Positions 18,820-26,633 of a stretch of DNA of 64,000 nt are shown piece after piece; the first letter of the stretch is position 1; every line of letters begins with the position of its first letter. The position numbers and the translations under genes were made by a program. The stretch is taken from contig NZ_JAPWGL010000001.1 in NCBI RefSeq assembly GCF_027213645.1, positions 744,001-808,000 on the forward strand. The letters are read 5' to 3'. A model generated the notes under the pieces. It was not told the DNA's origin, ran no database searches, and saw only the letters and a list, made by a program, of their open reading frames with translations. Source of the stretch: Pedobacter rhodius (lineage in GTDB: Bacteria; Bacteroidota; Bacteroidia; Sphingobacteriales; Sphingobacteriaceae).

Positions 18820-18846
18820 AGTAATCTTCTTCCGAAATAAGTTCCG

Positions 18847-18892
18847 GGCTTTAATAAAATGTAATGATAAACATTTTATTAAAGCCTTTTTT
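18847..18892 (+). terminator. Strong intrinsic terminator with a 16-bp perfect stem
   Basis: GGCTTTAATAAAATGT pairs exactly with ACATTTTATTAAAGCC across an 8-base loop and is followed by six T. The T-run also supplies the TTTG of the blaI promoter (18890-18893), so one gene's terminator and the next promoter abut. Confidence 0.9.
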
Positions 18893-18917
18893 GGTTTAAA
18901 GTTATTTCGTATATTTA
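18890..18917 (+). promoter_or_regulatory. blaI-M56 promoter
   Basis: TTTG (18890-18893), 16-bp spacer, TATATTTA (18910-18917), one mismatch from TAnnTTTG. The spacer length and both boxes match the GLPGLI promoter at 24469-24496. The -7 box lies inside the operator. Confidence 0.7.
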
Positions 18918-18930
18918 CGATATATTCGTA
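18906..18930 (+). promoter_or_regulatory. Putative BlaI operator, copy 1
   Basis: Three half sites with fixed spacing: TCGTA (18907-18911), 4 bp, TACGA (18916-18920), 5 bp, TCGTA (18926-18930). The first two make an inverted repeat over the -7 box; the third ends 5 bp before the blaI start. An almost identical site lies at 24465-24489. Confidence 0.72.
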
Positions 18931-18935
18931 ATTAA

Positions 18936-19298
18936 ATGGAGAAATTAACCTTACAGGAAGAAGAGGCAATGCTTGCGGTTTGGCAAATAAAAAAGGGCTT
19001 TATAAAAGATTTTATGGATGTTTTGCCTGAACCAAAACCACCCTATACAACTTTAGCCTCAACCGTAAAAAACCTGGAGCGTAAAGGTTATTTAATAAGC
19101 GAGCGGTTCGCAAATGCTAATCGCTACAGTGCAAAGGTTAAAGAAGCAGATTATAAAAAGCGTTTCATGAGTGGTTTTGTAGATAACTATTTCAAAAGCT
19201 CTTATAAAGAATTGGTTGCTTTTTTTGCAAAAGACAAAAAGATTAGTGCCGAAGAGTTGAAAGAGATAATTCACCTTATCGAAAATCCTGAAAAGTAA
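18936..19298 (+). CDS. BlaI/MecI/CopY family transcriptional repressor
   Basis: A 120-residue winged-helix repressor. LTLQEEEAMLAVWQIKKGFIKDFMD, then PPYTTLASTVKNLERKGYLISERFANANRYSAKVKEADYKKRFMS, is the BlaI signature, including the recognition helix and wing. A C-terminal dimerisation helix follows (SAEELKEIIHLIENP). In the known systems the M56 protease partner inactivates the repressor on sensing a signal. The M56 gene starts 4 bp after its stop. It very probably regulates itself and the GLPGLI operon, given the duplicated operator. Confidence 0.93.
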   Translation: MEKLTLQEEEAMLAVWQIKKGFIKDFMDVLPEPKPPYTTLASTVKNLERKGYLISERFANANRYSAKVKEADYKKRFMSGFVDNYFKSSYKELVAFFAKDKKISAEELKEIIHLIENPEK

Positions 19299-19302
19299 TG
19301 TT

Positions 19303-20778
19303 ATGCCACATTTCTTTATCATTCTATTCAAAATAAATCTGGTTTTGGTGCTTTTTGCAGCAGCTTACTACCTGGTGCTTCGAAGGCTAACTTTTTATGT
19401 TATCAACCGCATTTTTTTATTGTTTGGAATTTTATTTTCTACCCTTTATCCTTTCATAAATTTAACCGGGTTCTTCAACAGTTTCAAGTCTGCCCCGGCT
19501 TTTTTACCTCAATTAAATCAAAACGTTAATCAATTTGTGCAGCAAGAATCCATTTCTTTTTTCTGGCAAATTTTGACTTTTGTTTTTTATGCAGGTGTGC
19601 TTTTTATGGCTTCAAGATTAACGATCCAGTTTATTTCTCTGCGCCGTGTGCATAAAAATTCAAATCCGGGGCGGGTTGATGAATTTGATGTACGCATTCT
19701 GAATGATGAGGTAAGTCCGTTTTCCTTTTGGCAAACCATTTACGTTAATCCGCTTTTGCATAAAAAAGAAGATTTGAAAAATATCATCGAGCACGAAAGC
19801 GTGCATGTGGAGGAGTGGCATACATTAGATATCATCCTCGCAGAAATAAGCCTGGTTTTTTACTGGTTTAACCCTGGCGTTTGGTTAATGAAAAAAGCTG
19901 TTCGCGAAAATATTGAATTCATTACCGACGCTAAAATTTTAAAAAAAGGTATTGATAAAAAAGCTTATCAGTATAGTTTATTAGGCGTTGGCGCCTTAAA
20001 CCCATCTGTAGCGATTGTAAATAATTTCAATCTTTCCGATCTTAAAAAAAGAATTAAAATGATGAATGCCAGGCGTTCATCCAATATTAATCTGGCCAGG
20101 TATTTATTTATTTTACCAATTTTGTTGATAACAACTTTAGCTTTTACTATTGATAAAAAGGATGTAGAGAAAAGTTTGATGCCATTAAAAACAATTGTTG
20201 ACAAGGTAATTCCTGAAAAAAAACCAGAACCGTTGAGGATTCAGGTAAATCAGTTAAAAAAGCCTGTAAAAAAGGTTTTGCAAAAACCAAAGTTTGTAGA
20301 TACGACAAAAAACATAACCTTAATTTTAAATCAAGATATACGCGACAGCAATTCAGTACATAAAATTCTGAACTTGTTTCTGAAAGATAAGAATGATAAA
20401 GCGCCTGCAAAGTTCAAAGCTGACCGCAAAATTTTTATAAGCAATTTTGTGTTTAATGACACGGTAAAAAATGGTGAAACACCTGAAGTCAGGAATATTA
20501 AAATCACAATGAATACCGATAAAGACAGTCAGTATTCGTTTTCAGATGGTAAAAGGATCATCAATGTGGTTAAAGTTGTTGAAACAGGTAATAGCAGACA
20601 AGATTCTTTAACTAAACCGGATACAAAGAAGCATTTTTTCTTTACTCAATCTACCTCATATTCTTTGGATGGGAACAAAGTTTCTGCTGCGGATTTAAGC
20701 AGGTTAGATGCAAAACAAATAGAAAATATCATCATTTCTCATGGTGGCATGATGGATATAAAAACCAAACAAAAATAA
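19303..20778 (+). CDS. M56 (BlaR1-like) membrane metallopeptidase
   Basis: A 491-residue protein. The N-terminal membrane helices and the zinc-peptidase motif HESVHVEEWHTLD (HExxH near residue 165) are followed by another helix pair (IILAEISLVFYWFNPGVWLM) and the conserved RENIEFITDAKILKKG. After the last helix (YLFILPILLITTLAFTI) comes about 200 residues of low-complexity, Lys-rich periplasmic sequence. There is no penicillin-binding sensor domain, so it is not a beta-lactam sensor of the classical kind. The natural signal is unknown. It is translated from the blaI transcript. Confidence 0.88.
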   Translation: MPHFFIILFKINLVLVLFAAAYYLVLRRLTFYVINRIFLLFGILFSTLYPFINLTGFFNSFKSAPAFLPQLNQNVNQFVQQESISFFWQILTFVFYAGVLFMASRLTIQFISLRRVHKNSNPGRVDEFDVRILNDEVSPFSFWQTIYVNPLLHKKEDLKNIIEHESVHVEEWHTLDIILAEISLVFYWFNPGVWLMKKAVRENIEFITDAKILKKGIDKKAYQYSLLGVGALNPSVAIVNNFNLSDLKKRIKMMNARRSSNINLARYLFILPILLITTLAFTIDKKDVEKSLMPLKTIVDKVIPEKKPEPLRIQVNQLKKPVKKVLQKPKFVDTTKNITLILNQDIRDSNSVHKILNLFLKDKNDKAPAKFKADRKIFISNFVFNDTVKNGETPEVRNIKITMNTDKDSQYSFSDGKRIINVVKVVETGNSRQDSLTKPDTKKHFFFTQSTSYSLDGNKVSAADLSRLDAKQIENIIISHGGMMDIKTKQK

Positions 20779-20781
20779 GCT

Positions 20782-20813
20782 AAACCTCATCCAATGTCGG
20801 ATGAGGTTTTTTT
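20782..20813. terminator. Terminator between convergent operons
   Basis: AAACCTCATCC pairs with GGATGAGGTTT, loop of 6, followed by seven T on the plus strand. It sits between the M56 gene (+) and the outer-membrane barrel gene (-), with only two bases to the latter's stop. Confidence 0.85.
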
Positions 20814-20814
20814 A

Positions 20815-23481
20815 TTAAAAATTAAATCTTGCCCTTAGCATTGCTACTCTTCCGGGAATGTAGTAAGTGCCGGTTGTTAATGAATTGGCAGAAAGGTATA
20901 TGGCATCGAAAGTCTTAATGTTTGCTAAATTCGTTATGCCAAATTCCAAATCTGTTTTAAGTTTGACTATTTTGTATTTTACATTGGCATCGGCAAAAAG
21001 GTAATTTAAATTTGGCTGCGTTGATTGATGTGTAAACAAATGTTCTGCAGAGAGGTTTACATAAACGTTTTTAACGGTTGTAAAAGACAAAGCAGATTGC
21101 TGCCTTAATTGCTGAAAATTGGTTTTAATGGCATTTTCTGTTTGAGTTTTATTGTTTGTTATTGAATAAGTGGCATTGTACGACCAATTTATAAAGCTAG
21201 TTAACTTGGCATCAATTCCGGCTTTATAGGTAATGGTTTGGGTATTTATCGGCAGCAAATCATTGTTCTGAAGTTGCTGATAGTCGCTTTGAGCAAAACT
21301 CACACCGGCATTAACCGTGCTTCTGAAGTTAAACAGGTATTTACTGGCGTTGGCAGTTAACGATAAACTTTTAACATGGTTTGATAAAGGCAATACAACC
21401 CTTTGCTGAATATTGTTCGTTAGCGTATAGGATGAAATTGTATTTAATTCGGCATCGCTGTATCCGGCATTTACATTAATAAATAACATTTGCATCGCTT
21501 TTCTAAAGTTAAACCCTGCGCCAATTGAATGTATTTTACTTTCTGAGATGGGGGCATCGTTGGCGAAAAGCGAACGGTAGTTACGCAGAACAGTTCCTTT
21601 GTAAACATCATCAATCCCGCCTAAATCATTTTTAAAAGAATAGTTGGCCGAAACATAGTTTTCCGGGCTGGTTTGATATTTAAGATTCATTGATGGATTA
21701 ACAAAAAATCTTACTAAGCTTTTATCCAAATTGTTTCCCCGGTCTTCATAGTTTATCAGATTATAACTTAAAGGCAAGGAAAGGTTAACTTTTAGTTTAT
21801 CTCCGGTAAAGTCATAGCTGCCTTCCGTGTAAAATTTCGTTTTAAGCCAGTCTAAATCATTTACCGCATTTTGCGATACCAACTCAATCGTATGATTGTT
21901 CTGAATTTTGTATAACTCGGCGTTTAAATTCTGACTTTGAACATTAAAACCAACCCTGTAAGTTTGCATAAATTTGTTGCTAAACAATGCGTAGGAGATA
22001 TAATTGTTTGTGTAAGAAGTTGGCAGCTTCGTGTATTGATTTAAGCCTGCATAGGCTTGCCCGTTGTTCAGGATATCTGCATTTAAACCCGGAGTAATAT
22101 TTAAACTTTCGGGCTGCGTTGTGCGATTTAGGTAGGAATAAAAGTTTAAGACATCGTCAGATTTGAGTTTCTTCCGGTAGCTGAATTCGTTTGAAACATC
22201 AAGCGTTTCTTGCTTGAGGATTTGATAAGCAGGTATACTATTAATCACTATTCCTGAATTTGTTTTGAAAGGAACATAGTCCAATACAAAATTGTTATTC
22301 AGGTAGTACTTATCCGCATTGCCATTTAAATTAAATTGTGCCCGTAATTTTTGCGGATTGACAGCATTGCTTTGAATTTCTGTATACTTTACCGTTTCCG
22401 TAGGTAAATACGTTTTTGAAAACTTATTGTATTGTTGGGTTCGTTCATCATACAAATAGTAGAGATTGGCTCGCAGCTGTAAATCATCATTAAATTTATA
22501 GAGGTTGTTCAGGTTGATTAAACCTGCTTTATTAAACAGATACCGGCTTTGAGGTAACGATGGAACGCCTGCGGCACCTGTAGAAAGTAATCCGGATGGT
22601 TTGTCGTTATCCAGTCTTTTCAGGTAATCAGAAAAATTATGTGAGGTTAAGTCAATTCCGGGGTCGATGCCAATATTATTGCCTTTAATATTATTGATGA
22701 ATTTCAATTTTTTGTTGAATAACATTGCTGTTAAATTTTCATCAAAGCGGTTGGGTGTGCCGGCACCAACAGTTGCATCGCCCATCACTTTAAGCTTAGC
22801 CTCATCCTTCAATACCAGATTAAGTGCAACATCATCACTGGTGTTGTTTTTGCGCATCATCTTAATGGGTTGGTCGTTCTGAATTACCTGTACTTTATCA
22901 ACGGCACCCTGCGGAATACTTTTAGTGCCGATGTTGTATTTATCATCGAGGAGGTTATCACCATCTACATATAAATTTGAAATTGCCTTTCCGTTGTAGC
23001 TCACTTTTCCGTCTTCGGCAACTTCAATTCCCGGCATTTTCTTCAGAACATCGCCAATGCTTCTGTCTTGCTTATCTGCAAAATCCGATGGCCTGTAATT
23101 TAACGTGTCGCCGTTGGATGTTAATTTTGGCCGGTTTTTAACCGTTACGGTTTCAAGGTTAATTTCTCCGTTTTGAAGGACTAAATCGTAGCTTTTGTTT
23201 ACATCATCTATTTTGACAGCTGTTTTTTTATAACCGATGCTGGATGCTTCAAGGTTATAATTAATAACATTTTCATTTTTAAGGCTGATTGAAAAATCGC
23301 CCTTGCTATCTGACCGGTTAAAGCTTACGATATTACCTTCCGTATCTTTTAAAGTAACGTTAACTGATGAAATTCCCTTGCCCGAAATGTCCTTAACCTT
23401 TCCTTTCAATTGTTTTTGCCCGAATACTGCAGTAAAGCTTAGCAATGCTGAACATATAATTATTGCAGATAGTCCTCTCAT
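20815..23481 (-). CDS. TonB-receptor-like outer-membrane barrel, partner of the GLPGLI protein
   Basis: An 888-residue exported protein. It has a signal peptide (IIICSALLSFTAVFGQ), a CarboxypepD_reg domain (QLKGKVKDISGKGISSVNVTLKDTEGNIVSF), and a plug-like segment (SIGDVLKKMPGIEVAEDGKVSYNGKAISNLYVDGDNLLDDKYNIGTKSIPQGAVDKVQVIQN). A long beta-barrel follows, ending in Phe (LRARFNF). It lacks the standard RGPxGxLFG plug signature of true nutrient receptors, so it may be a non-importing or atypical barrel. It overlaps the upstream GLPGLI gene by 4 bp and is almost certainly cotranscribed with it. Confidence 0.88.
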   Translation of the reverse strand: MRGLSAIIICSALLSFTAVFGQKQLKGKVKDISGKGISSVNVTLKDTEGNIVSFNRSDSKGDFSISLKNENVINYNLEASSIGYKKTAVKIDDVNKSYDLVLQNGEINLETVTVKNRPKLTSNGDTLNYRPSDFADKQDRSIGDVLKKMPGIEVAEDGKVSYNGKAISNLYVDGDNLLDDKYNIGTKSIPQGAVDKVQVIQNDQPIKMMRKNNTSDDVALNLVLKDEAKLKVMGDATVGAGTPNRFDENLTAMLFNKKLKFINNIKGNNIGIDPGIDLTSHNFSDYLKRLDNDKPSGLLSTGAAGVPSLPQSRYLFNKAGLINLNNLYKFNDDLQLRANLYYLYDERTQQYNKFSKTYLPTETVKYTEIQSNAVNPQKLRAQFNLNGNADKYYLNNNFVLDYVPFKTNSGIVINSIPAYQILKQETLDVSNEFSYRKKLKSDDVLNFYSYLNRTTQPESLNITPGLNADILNNGQAYAGLNQYTKLPTSYTNNYISYALFSNKFMQTYRVGFNVQSQNLNAELYKIQNNHTIELVSQNAVNDLDWLKTKFYTEGSYDFTGDKLKVNLSLPLSYNLINYEDRGNNLDKSLVRFFVNPSMNLKYQTSPENYVSANYSFKNDLGGIDDVYKGTVLRNYRSLFANDAPISESKIHSIGAGFNFRKAMQMLFINVNAGYSDAELNTISSYTLTNNIQQRVVLPLSNHVKSLSLTANASKYLFNFRSTVNAGVSFAQSDYQQLQNNDLLPINTQTITYKAGIDAKLTSFINWSYNATYSITNNKTQTENAIKTNFQQLRQQSALSFTTVKNVYVNLSAEHLFTHQSTQPNLNYLFADANVKYKIVKLKTDLEFGITNLANIKTFDAIYLSANSLTTGTYYIPGRVAMLRARFNF

Positions 23482-24440
23482 TTTTTCTCAGGAAGTTCGA
23501 TTGGATTATTAATGGTTGTTTTTGACAATGAAGTTATGCCGCCGGATGGTCGGGGCGCTGTCGATGTTTTAAATGAACCTTGCATACCGCTTGCGGCCAT
23601 TTGTGCCTGCATAAAACCCTGAGGATCTTTATCTCTTGCTTCTTTCAGCCTGTCGAATTCTTTTTTTGTGGTTTTTATGGCATCGGCAGGGAGTTTAATT
23701 TCAGATTCGAAATAAGGATTTCCGATATCCATGCCAACAATTTTAACCGTACCAACAGCACCATTTGGCATGGTTAGTTTTGGCTCGCCATTTTCTGTTG
23801 CTTTCGCAGCTTCTTCTTTAACGTTTTCCAGACCTGCGAATTCAAATTTTACTTCTTTTTTTTCATCATAAGCCTCGATAATTAAGCCTGGCAAACCATT
23901 TAATTTCCATGGGCCACTTTGAAAAGGAATTTCGGTGGCAAACCAGGCTATCCAGTTTCTACCCTTGAAGTGCGTGGTCGCTTTCTGGCAATGAATTCCT
24001 GAAAAACTTGTCGTGTCTTTTAGTATTTTCCAGTCTATAACTGGTGCGGTTTCCTCGATAAGGTAATTATTAAACAAGCGCTCTTTAGTTATTAATTTAT
24101 GTTCAGCAGCGAAGTAAAAATAATCAGATTGTGTTAACGGGCCTTTAGTTTCGCTTTTTATATTGATGGTAAAGTTGTTGCTGCCGGCTTGATTTTTCAT
24201 TTGTTCCTGCATTTGTTTCTGCATGTTCATGCTCTGATTAATCTTGTCGTAACTTGTATATACCGATGCATTATTACCGGTAACGAGCAGCATGTTCTCT
24301 TTTGCGGGTTTATCTTTTTGCGTGGTATCCTGAATGTGGGTGAAGGTGTACCGAACCCGGGCCAGTGCTTTATCGGGTTTTTGTGCATGAATGGTTAATG
24401 ACAGCATGGCTGCACAGCAGGTTGTTAAAATAGTTTTCAT
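23478..24440 (-). CDS. GLPGLI family protein
   Basis: A 320-residue exported protein with the name-giving motif in WKLNGLPGLIIEAYDEK. It starts with a signal peptide (MKTILTTCCAAMLSLTIHAQ). The family (TIGR01200) is found in Bacteroidota, usually next to outer-membrane barrels, and has no known activity. Other conserved features seen: VIDWKILKDTTSFSGIHCQKATTHFKGRNWIAWFATEIPFQSGPW. A Met/Gln-rich linker (SMNMQKQMQEQMKNQ) near residue 70 is unusual. Expression is probably controlled by the BlaI-like operator 25-49 bp upstream. Confidence 0.92.
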   Translation of the reverse strand: MKTILTTCCAAMLSLTIHAQKPDKALARVRYTFTHIQDTTQKDKPAKENMLLVTGNNASVYTSYDKINQSMNMQKQMQEQMKNQAGSNNFTINIKSETKGPLTQSDYFYFAAEHKLITKERLFNNYLIEETAPVIDWKILKDTTSFSGIHCQKATTHFKGRNWIAWFATEIPFQSGPWKLNGLPGLIIEAYDEKKEVKFEFAGLENVKEEAAKATENGEPKLTMPNGAVGTVKIVGMDIGNPYFESEIKLPADAIKTTKKEFDRLKEARDKDPQGFMQAQMAASGMQGSFKTSTAPRPSGGITSLSKTTINNPIELPEKK

Positions 24441-24464
24441 AATACTTATTTAGATTATTTAATT

Positions 24465-24489
24465 TTCGTAAATCTACGAAATATTCGTA
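24465..24489 (-). promoter_or_regulatory. Putative BlaI operator, copy 2
   Basis: TCGTA (24466-24470), 4 bp, TACGA (24475-24479), 5 bp, TCGTA (24485-24489): the same half sites and spacings as at 18906-18930. The first pair covers the -7 box of the GLPGLI promoter on the minus strand. Confidence 0.72.
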
Positions 24490-24496
24490 ATACAAA
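24469..24496 (-). promoter_or_regulatory. GLPGLI operon promoter
   Basis: On the minus strand TTTG (24496-24493), 16-bp spacer, TAGATTTA (24476-24469). Spacer length and both boxes parallel the blaI promoter. Confidence 0.68.
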
Positions 24497-25781: not shown

Positions 25782-26633
25782 ATGAACGTTAAAATTGTAA
25801 ACTTGTTTGCATTTGCTATTCTTCTGACAAGCTTTTCTTTGAAGGCACAAAATGTTGAAGAAAATATCCGGATGGTAAAACCATTTAAAGCAGATGGCTT
25901 ATCTAATGAATGGGAAGAGCCGCTTAATCAATACAACGATGCGACAAAGCTCGCTTTCGCATTAGCTAATGATGATACAAACCTTTACATTATTATAGAG
26001 TCGCTGGATCCTCAAACAACCTTCAGTGTTTTGCGTGGCGGGATAACGCTGAACATTAATACCCAGGGCAAAAAGAAAGATGGTATCAAATTGATTTTTC
26101 CATTGATTGAAAGGCCGCCAATGCTCAAAGACGGTGAAATGCCTGAAGGCAAAGATGGTGCTCCGCCGCAGTGGCAGGAAGACAGAAGTGGTGAGCAGCC
26201 CGTAATGAAAAGTATTAAAATTTTCGGCTTTAAGAATATTAAGGATGGTAACCTGCCTGTTGTGAATGAAGAAGGTATTGAAACCGGCATGGGTATTCGG
26301 CCAAACAAAGACCTTACTTACGAACTGAGCATACCACTGGCGCAATTAGAAGTAAGTTTAGATATGAAGACACCTTTGGTTTATAACATAAAAATTAACC
26401 AGCCTAACAGGCCTGATTTTAAGAAAGGTGGCGATAGACCGGAAGGCGAGGGCAGGCCCGGAAGCAGAGGCGGAATGGGTGGTGGTGGAATGGGCGGCGG
26501 ACGTGGCGGTATGGAGCGCAGCGTCGGAAAAATGGGCGGTGGAAGTGGTGGCAGACCTCCCGGAGCGGGTATGGATGGACCGGAAAATAGAAAGTCTGAT
26601 TTCTGGATAAAATATAAACTTGTAAAAGCTTAA
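25782..26633 (+). CDS. Exported protein with CBM9/DOMON-like domain and Gly-rich tail
   Basis: A 283-residue protein with a signal peptide (LFAFAILLTSFSLKAQ). Residues about 30-200 (FKADGLSNEWEEPLNQYNDATKLAFALANDDTNLYIIIES) resemble the beta-sandwich of carbohydrate-binding family 9-like domains. Residues about 215-265 are extremely rich in Gly, Met and Arg (GGMGGGGMGGGRGGM). The end is DFWIKYKLVKA. The function is unknown; a surface or binding role is inference. It stands alone between two terminators. Confidence 0.7.
   Translation: MNVKIVNLFAFAILLTSFSLKAQNVEENIRMVKPFKADGLSNEWEEPLNQYNDATKLAFALANDDTNLYIIIESLDPQTTFSVLRGGITLNINTQGKKKDGIKLIFPLIERPPMLKDGEMPEGKDGAPPQWQEDRSGEQPVMKSIKIFGFKNIKDGNLPVVNEEGIETGMGIRPNKDLTYELSIPLAQLEVSLDMKTPLVYNIKINQPNRPDFKKGGDRPEGEGRPGSRGGMGGGGMGGGRGGMERSVGKMGGGSGGRPPGAGMDGPENRKSDFWIKYKLVKA

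Follow-up and report, generated by a model that had tools for sequence, protein, structure and literature searches.

A BlaI-type repressor gene and its M56 protease partner lie in Pedobacter rhodius opposite an operon for a GLPGLI-family exported protein and an outer-membrane beta-barrel protein, and the question raised by this locus is whether a single repressor controls both operons. The first-pass annotation of the window (the whole stretch of 64,000 nucleotides that was analysed, to which all coordinates without a contig or locus label refer) had proposed this on account of two similar sites at the promoters.

Two mirror-image operators at convergent promoters

The locus comprises the following features:

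18890..18917, + strand: Bacteroidetes-type promoter of blaI-M56, seen in the sequence (TTTG 18890-18893, N16, TATATTTA 18910-18917)
18907..18930, + strand: operator 1, half-sites 18907-18911, 18916-18920 and 18926-18930, 5 bp before the blaI ATG
18936..19298, + strand: blaI, BlaI/MecI-family repressor, 120 aa (PF03965, 82.6 bits)
19303..20778, + strand: M56/BlaR1-type membrane zinc protease, 491 aa (PF05569, 49.3 bits)
20815..23481, - strand: outer-membrane beta-barrel protein with CarboxypepD-reg domain, 888 aa (PF13620/PF13715)
23478..24440, - strand: GLPGLI-family exported protein, 320 aa (TIGR01200), predicted LolA/RseB/NBL-type bowl
24466..24489, - strand: operator 2, half-sites 24485-24489, 24475-24479 and 24466-24470, with 25 bp between operator and GLPGLI ATG
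24469..24496, - strand: promoter of GLPGLI-barrel, seen in the sequence (TTTG 24496-24493, N16, TAGATTTA 24476-24469)

Operator 1 reads TCGTATATTTACGATATATTCGTA (18907-18930) and operator 2 TCGTAAATCTACGAAATATTCGTA (24466-24489). Both exhibit the pattern TCGTA-N4-TACGA-N5-TCGTA at the positions given by the first-pass annotation and with the identical spacings it described; the shared layout, however, measures 24 bp and not 25. Each operator overlaps a Bacteroidetes-type promoter, TTTG-N16-TANATTTA, so that the promoter pattern TTTG-N16-TA(T/G)ATTTA was recovered at both places, and in each of them the -7 box is covered by the TCGTA-N4-TACGA part, again as claimed. The blaI-M56 promoter fits the known -33/-7 layout of Bacteroidetes. 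A terminator-like inverted repeat with a T run after it (18840-18890) lies between the blaI promoter and the 166-aa gene upstream, and apparently separates the two transcription units.

On the + strand the two sites share one orientation, and the operons face each other. Read along each operon's own direction of transcription, the operators are consequently mirrored: the blaI copy has its third half-site downstream of the -7 box, the GLPGLI copy upstream. This arrangement was found without exception in Pedobacter, at 66 of 66 exact sites of blaI and 68 of 68 of GLPGLI genes.

The 4.68-Mb genome contains only two exact matches to the full pattern, namely these two sites, at an expectation from base composition of about 0.012, and the reversed control pattern gave no match in it. 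Thus, the concern that the pattern might be common at unrelated promoters proved unfounded. Within the 64-kb window, these two exact copies were accompanied by further matches to a total of six when up to three mismatches were allowed, a number reached by no shuffle. A third TCGTA-N4-TACGA (C4:676629, L143), situated between Asn-tRNA-synthetase-like and glutamate-synthase-like genes, is devoid of the third half-site and was treated as chance. Other exact dyads of the genome (C1:948117 plus two repeats, C4:368146, C6:169648) did not precede a GLPGLI, barrel or blaI gene where they were read, and the other GLPGLI homologs of the same genome (L151-L153) did not disclose such a dyad. The 10-base dyad alone occurs at 83 places versus 242 for its reversed control; since it is that common by chance, a lone dyad is not usable for calling regulon members in one genome.

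The operator accompanies the BlaI ortholog in Pedobacter

We searched 145 Pedobacter genomes for BlaI orthologs and, separately, scanned the same genomes by the DNA pattern alone. The orthologs form a group of 78-100% identity, with a wide gap to paralogs at about 43% or less. Ortholog and site occurred together in 75 genomes, the ortholog without the site in none and the site without the ortholog in one, while 69 genomes contained neither. Fisher's test gave p = 2.8e-41, a value that is nominal because the genomes are phylogenetically related. In all 69 blaI ortholog loci that were read, a palindromic operator, to which BlaI is predicted to bind, covers the gene's own promoter, 2-8 bp 5' of the ATG, and the operator bases are conserved and the flanks are not. 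The operator thus tracks BlaI-M56-GLPGLI loci, a check suggested by the first-pass annotation, and the lone exception is a deletion scar. In this genome (G006, L133 12241-12264) all four genes are missing, and a single hybrid site with the left flank of operator 1 and the right flank of operator 2 stands between the same flanking genes; the cassette was therefore apparently deleted precisely between the two directly repeated operators. Presence of the cassette is patchy within Pedobacter, and 29 other genomes without it that were read did not show a scar.

Operators at GLPGLI genes and in other genera

Out of 104 GLPGLI genes in the Pedobacter loci read, 87 possess a dyad of their own (at most one mismatch) and 16 follow another GLPGLI gene within an operon; the remaining one, a partial gene, shows neither feature. 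Across the loci, the principal GLPGLI gene is paired with the barrel gene. Divergent extra GLPGLI copies have their own dyad in 27 of 38 cases. The site also persists where the locus is rearranged: in G019 a distance of 149 kb separates blaI-M56 from GLPGLI-barrel, and the operator is kept at both, a lone GLPGLI gene on another contig carries it in G045, and seven tandem GLPGLI genes with several operators lie beside the cassette in G075 (L101 7500-14200). In other genera we found two loci (L177, L178) with all four genes co-directional behind one operator, and in G208 an unlinked barrel-GLPGLI operon (28-31% identical) with an operator, 14 kb from blaI. GLPGLI promoters of Mucilaginibacter exhibit the exact TACGA-N5-TCGTA in 10 of 16 loci, compared to none of 3200 shuffles; the dyad is absent from the remaining six, and blaI-M56 was not found within the flank of roughly 9 kb around the GLPGLI-barrel pair. 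Consequently, the description of the four genes as a self-contained cassette applies to most Pedobacter, but not to the split locus of G019 or to the trans cases in Mucilaginibacter, G208 and G776.

BlaI orthologs are present in 12 of the 25 genera of the family. In many genera blaI-M56 comes with the operator but no GLPGLI gene nearby, indicating that linkage to a GLPGLI target is not obligatory. In many Sphingobacteriaceae the exact site is confined to blaI. A scan of 395 genomes of the class by pattern alone yielded matches in 17, seven of them outside the family. Five of these seven lie at blaI promoters (G484, G502, G592, G766, G466), and a sixth, in G776, lies at that of a barrel gene. 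The match in G728, by an ArsR-like gene, was treated as chance or as belonging to an unrelated regulator. Judging from these sequences, the operator alphabet is conserved across several Bacteroidia families, whereby the regulon should become readable from genomes.

In G168, unlinked operators precede two genes of one secreted family (L210 8001-8834, L211 7136-8024). Their products are 33% identical to each other and 30% identical to that of the window ORF 25782-26633 near the cassette, which does not have an operator of its own.

The presumed binding unit

Outside Pedobacter, blaI frequently has a full palindromic array as its operator, TACGA-N5-TCGTA-N4-TACGA-N5-TCGTA, of which the promoters in the window hold three of the four half-sites. 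Degenerate sites retain the N5 dyad, and in Mucilaginibacter most GLPGLI promoters contain only this dyad, a second one being present in register but degenerate. These comparisons make TACGA-N5-TCGTA the probable true unit bound by a dimer, and this unit frequently occurs twice, giving four half-sites. BlaI sites of C. thermocellum, defined independently by DAP-seq, are composed of inverted repeats five nucleotides apart, two pairs of which accommodate four protomers (PMC8457756). A BlaI paralog with 25% identity (L142, upstream of 4576) is preceded by two TACGA-N6-TCGTA repeats, which have the same half-site at a spacing one base longer.

Properties of the encoded proteins

BlaI passes the curated cut-off of PF03965 (82.6 versus 22.6 bits) and is related to MecI/BlaI structures (E 4e-6 to 6e-5), including MecI (1sd6/1okr) at E 4e-6. 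Its mean column conservation is 0.91, and the recognition helix PYTTLAST is invariant among the orthologs. BlaI paralogs of the same genome, which likewise have an M56 partner, contain NTVST/NTISS instead of TTLAST and lack such an operator. The scissile Asn101-Phe102 of MecI/BlaI aligns with Phe-Phe, hence the cut site, if there is any, differs here. A CopY-type repressor was not indicated, as the protein contains no cysteine and thus no C-terminal CXC motif, and it reached 26.6 bits with the CopY equivalog at a cut-off of 121.95. Among the papers listed by literature searches on Pedobacter BlaI and on M56-BlaI of Bacteroidetes, none dealt with regulation or operators; P. gingivalis blaI was found only in a methylation/expression table.

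The M56 protein also exceeds its family cut-off (PF05569, 49.3 versus 31 bits). Its zinc motifs HESVH (residues 164-168) and ExxxD (205-209), in the sequence HESVH...ENIEFITD, are intact as HExxH and ExxxD in 27 of 27 homologs. They are followed by a variable periplasmic tail (about 300-450) and a short plug-like C-terminus. Mean column conservation, about 0.8 over much of the protease portion, drops to about 0.25-0.5 beyond residue 300, and the AF2 model (pLDDT 55 overall, too low for a fold search, and below 50 over 302-450) predicts a mostly disordered tail. Such a poorly conserved, mostly disordered tail is unusual for a ligand sensor and counts against the circuit proposed below. PF05569 was the only domain matched, a penicillin-binding sensor domain was not found on the protein, and the M56 sequence by itself retrieved no match from the PDB. 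By hhalign, the C-terminus matched Plug-bearing M56 orthologs (93%), of which L163 contains a Plug domain (PF07715, E 2.7e-13), whereas no link to the plug region of the barrel itself was obtained (probability 0.5%). Two M56 paralogs of the same genome (L141 8357-9913, L139 6360-8351) have varied periplasmic tails, with an N-acetylmuramoyl-L-alanine amidase domain fused in one and TonB_C plus Plug domains in the other.

The GLPGLI protein scores 167.1 bits with TIGR01200 (cut-off 50) and contains NGLPGLI at residues 181-187. Its AF2 model (pLDDT 81) resembles most closely the N-terminal domain of PNGF-II (Z 16.2), followed by LolA/EPDR/RseB (Z about 8-10); that PNGF-II domain has been described as unique, its function being unknown (PMC9522356). 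No function is known for the GLPGLI proteins, a family of Bacteroidetes with few mentions in the literature searched. Given the modelled fold, the GLPGLI-barrel pair might tentatively be assigned a role at the outer membrane, either in repair or in the handling of a hydrophobic cargo such as a lipid or lipoprotein.

A proposed regulatory circuit and its alternatives

We consider it very likely from the distribution of the sites that BlaI represses both the blaI-M56 and the GLPGLI-barrel operons through the two operators. The first-pass proposal of one repressor for both operons is thereby supported nearly as well as sequence comparison allows, on the one hand by the agreement between ortholog and operator in the 145 genomes, on the other hand by operators at unlinked GLPGLI-barrel genes in other genera. 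A BlaI dimer would bind TACGA-N5-TCGTA dyads, cooperatively where dyads stack at N4 spacing, and would repress two convergent operons, its own and that of the GLPGLI-barrel pair. Since the operators overlap the -7 box, bound BlaI may exclude the RNA polymerase by promoter occlusion. M56 would read a cue from the periplasm or envelope, its cytoplasm-facing zinc protease would thereby be activated, and BlaI would be cut. BlaR1 has been shown to cut BlaI directly (PMC9834060), and by analogy we infer that repression is relieved by M56 here as well; cleavage of BlaI by M56 is likely. Both operons would then be induced together, and autoregulation would limit the response. An unlikely, speculative extension starts from the long, fast-evolving tail, which ends in a minimal motif resembling a TonB-receptor plug: with this end as a decoy plug, M56 might read the outer membrane, sensing the state of TonB or of barrel/GLPGLI cargo, and, through the cut of BlaI, induce repair or uptake by GLPGLI-barrel.

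The operator might instead belong to another, unlinked regulator, with blaI as merely one of its targets, a view to which the GLPGLI pairs far from blaI would lend themselves. It is made highly improbable by the fact that the operator follows the BlaI ortholog genome by genome and marks blaI itself, both in further families and in every Pedobacter ortholog read; moreover, its geometry agrees with that of BlaI operators verified by DAP-seq, and a conserved recognition helix goes with a conserved operator. A repressor acting on its own operon only, the GLPGLI site being an inherited duplicate without regulatory effect, would account for the many Sphingobacteriaceae with the exact site at blaI alone. 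This we hardly believe, because at GLPGLI genes the operator bases are conserved and the flanks are not, and because the site recurs at divergent GLPGLI-barrel pairs in other genera, each time at a promoter.

Copies of the site at internal extra GLPGLI genes, at unlinked GLPGLI or barrel genes and at lone blaI-M56 of other genera likewise speak against the notion that the directly repeated 24-bp sites are att-like recombination ends of a mobile cassette rather than operators. Chromosomal direct repeats do flank exactly the four genes, whose patchy presence in the genus and whose loss in G006, leaving one hybrid site between the same flanking genes, would suit such ends. Single operators, however, were seen at non-flanking genes, every copy overlaps or adjoins a promoter, the 29 further cassette-less genomes are free of scars and the cassette contains no recombinase gene, which renders att-like ends extremely improbable.

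With repression of both operons by BlaI as the preferred reading, the GLPGLI/barrel proteins are tied to a named repressor, to a defined operator and, by prediction, to a signal relayed by a protease, which gives a regulatory handle on their function: once it is identified what derepresses BlaI, the function of GLPGLI should follow.

Comparison with known systems

The predicted GLPGLI fold resembles the NBL domain of PNGF-II and, more distantly, LolA and RseB, but GLPGLI is devoid of a glycosidase domain and is paired with an outer-membrane barrel. The copper repressors CopY/TcrY belong to the same Pfam family as the BlaI described here, which differs from them by the missing CXC metal site, another operator and the presence of an M56 partner. 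With BlaI of C. thermocellum (PMC8457756) it would share a small regulon, N5 inverted repeats (BlaI_0696) in two pairs for four protomers, and self-regulation together with BlaR1; the half-site there is GTCTAT/GACTAT, the host is a Firmicute, and the targets are different ones, which were read as a beta-lactam response.

Like BlaI-BlaR1 and MecI-MecR1 of Bacillus and Staphylococcus, the locus encodes a winged-helix repressor beside an M56 membrane protease with HExxH...ExxxD, has operators common to the regulatory and the effector operon, and is autoregulated by prediction. The classical operator TACA-N2-TGTA is replaced by TACGA-N5-TCGTA, with arrays at N4, and the operons are convergent instead of divergent. 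Neither the Asn-Phe cut site nor the penicillin-binding sensor of the classical systems was found. These regulate beta-lactamase and PBP2a; here the effector is the outer-membrane GLPGLI-barrel pair, and the operator-bearing targets are GLPGLI and barrel genes, none being a beta-lactamase or PBP. The locus differs from known BlaI-M56 systems in its operator, its effector and the beta-lactam sensor, which was not found, and would represent, as far as genome comparison indicates, a BlaI-M56 system working outside beta-lactam resistance.
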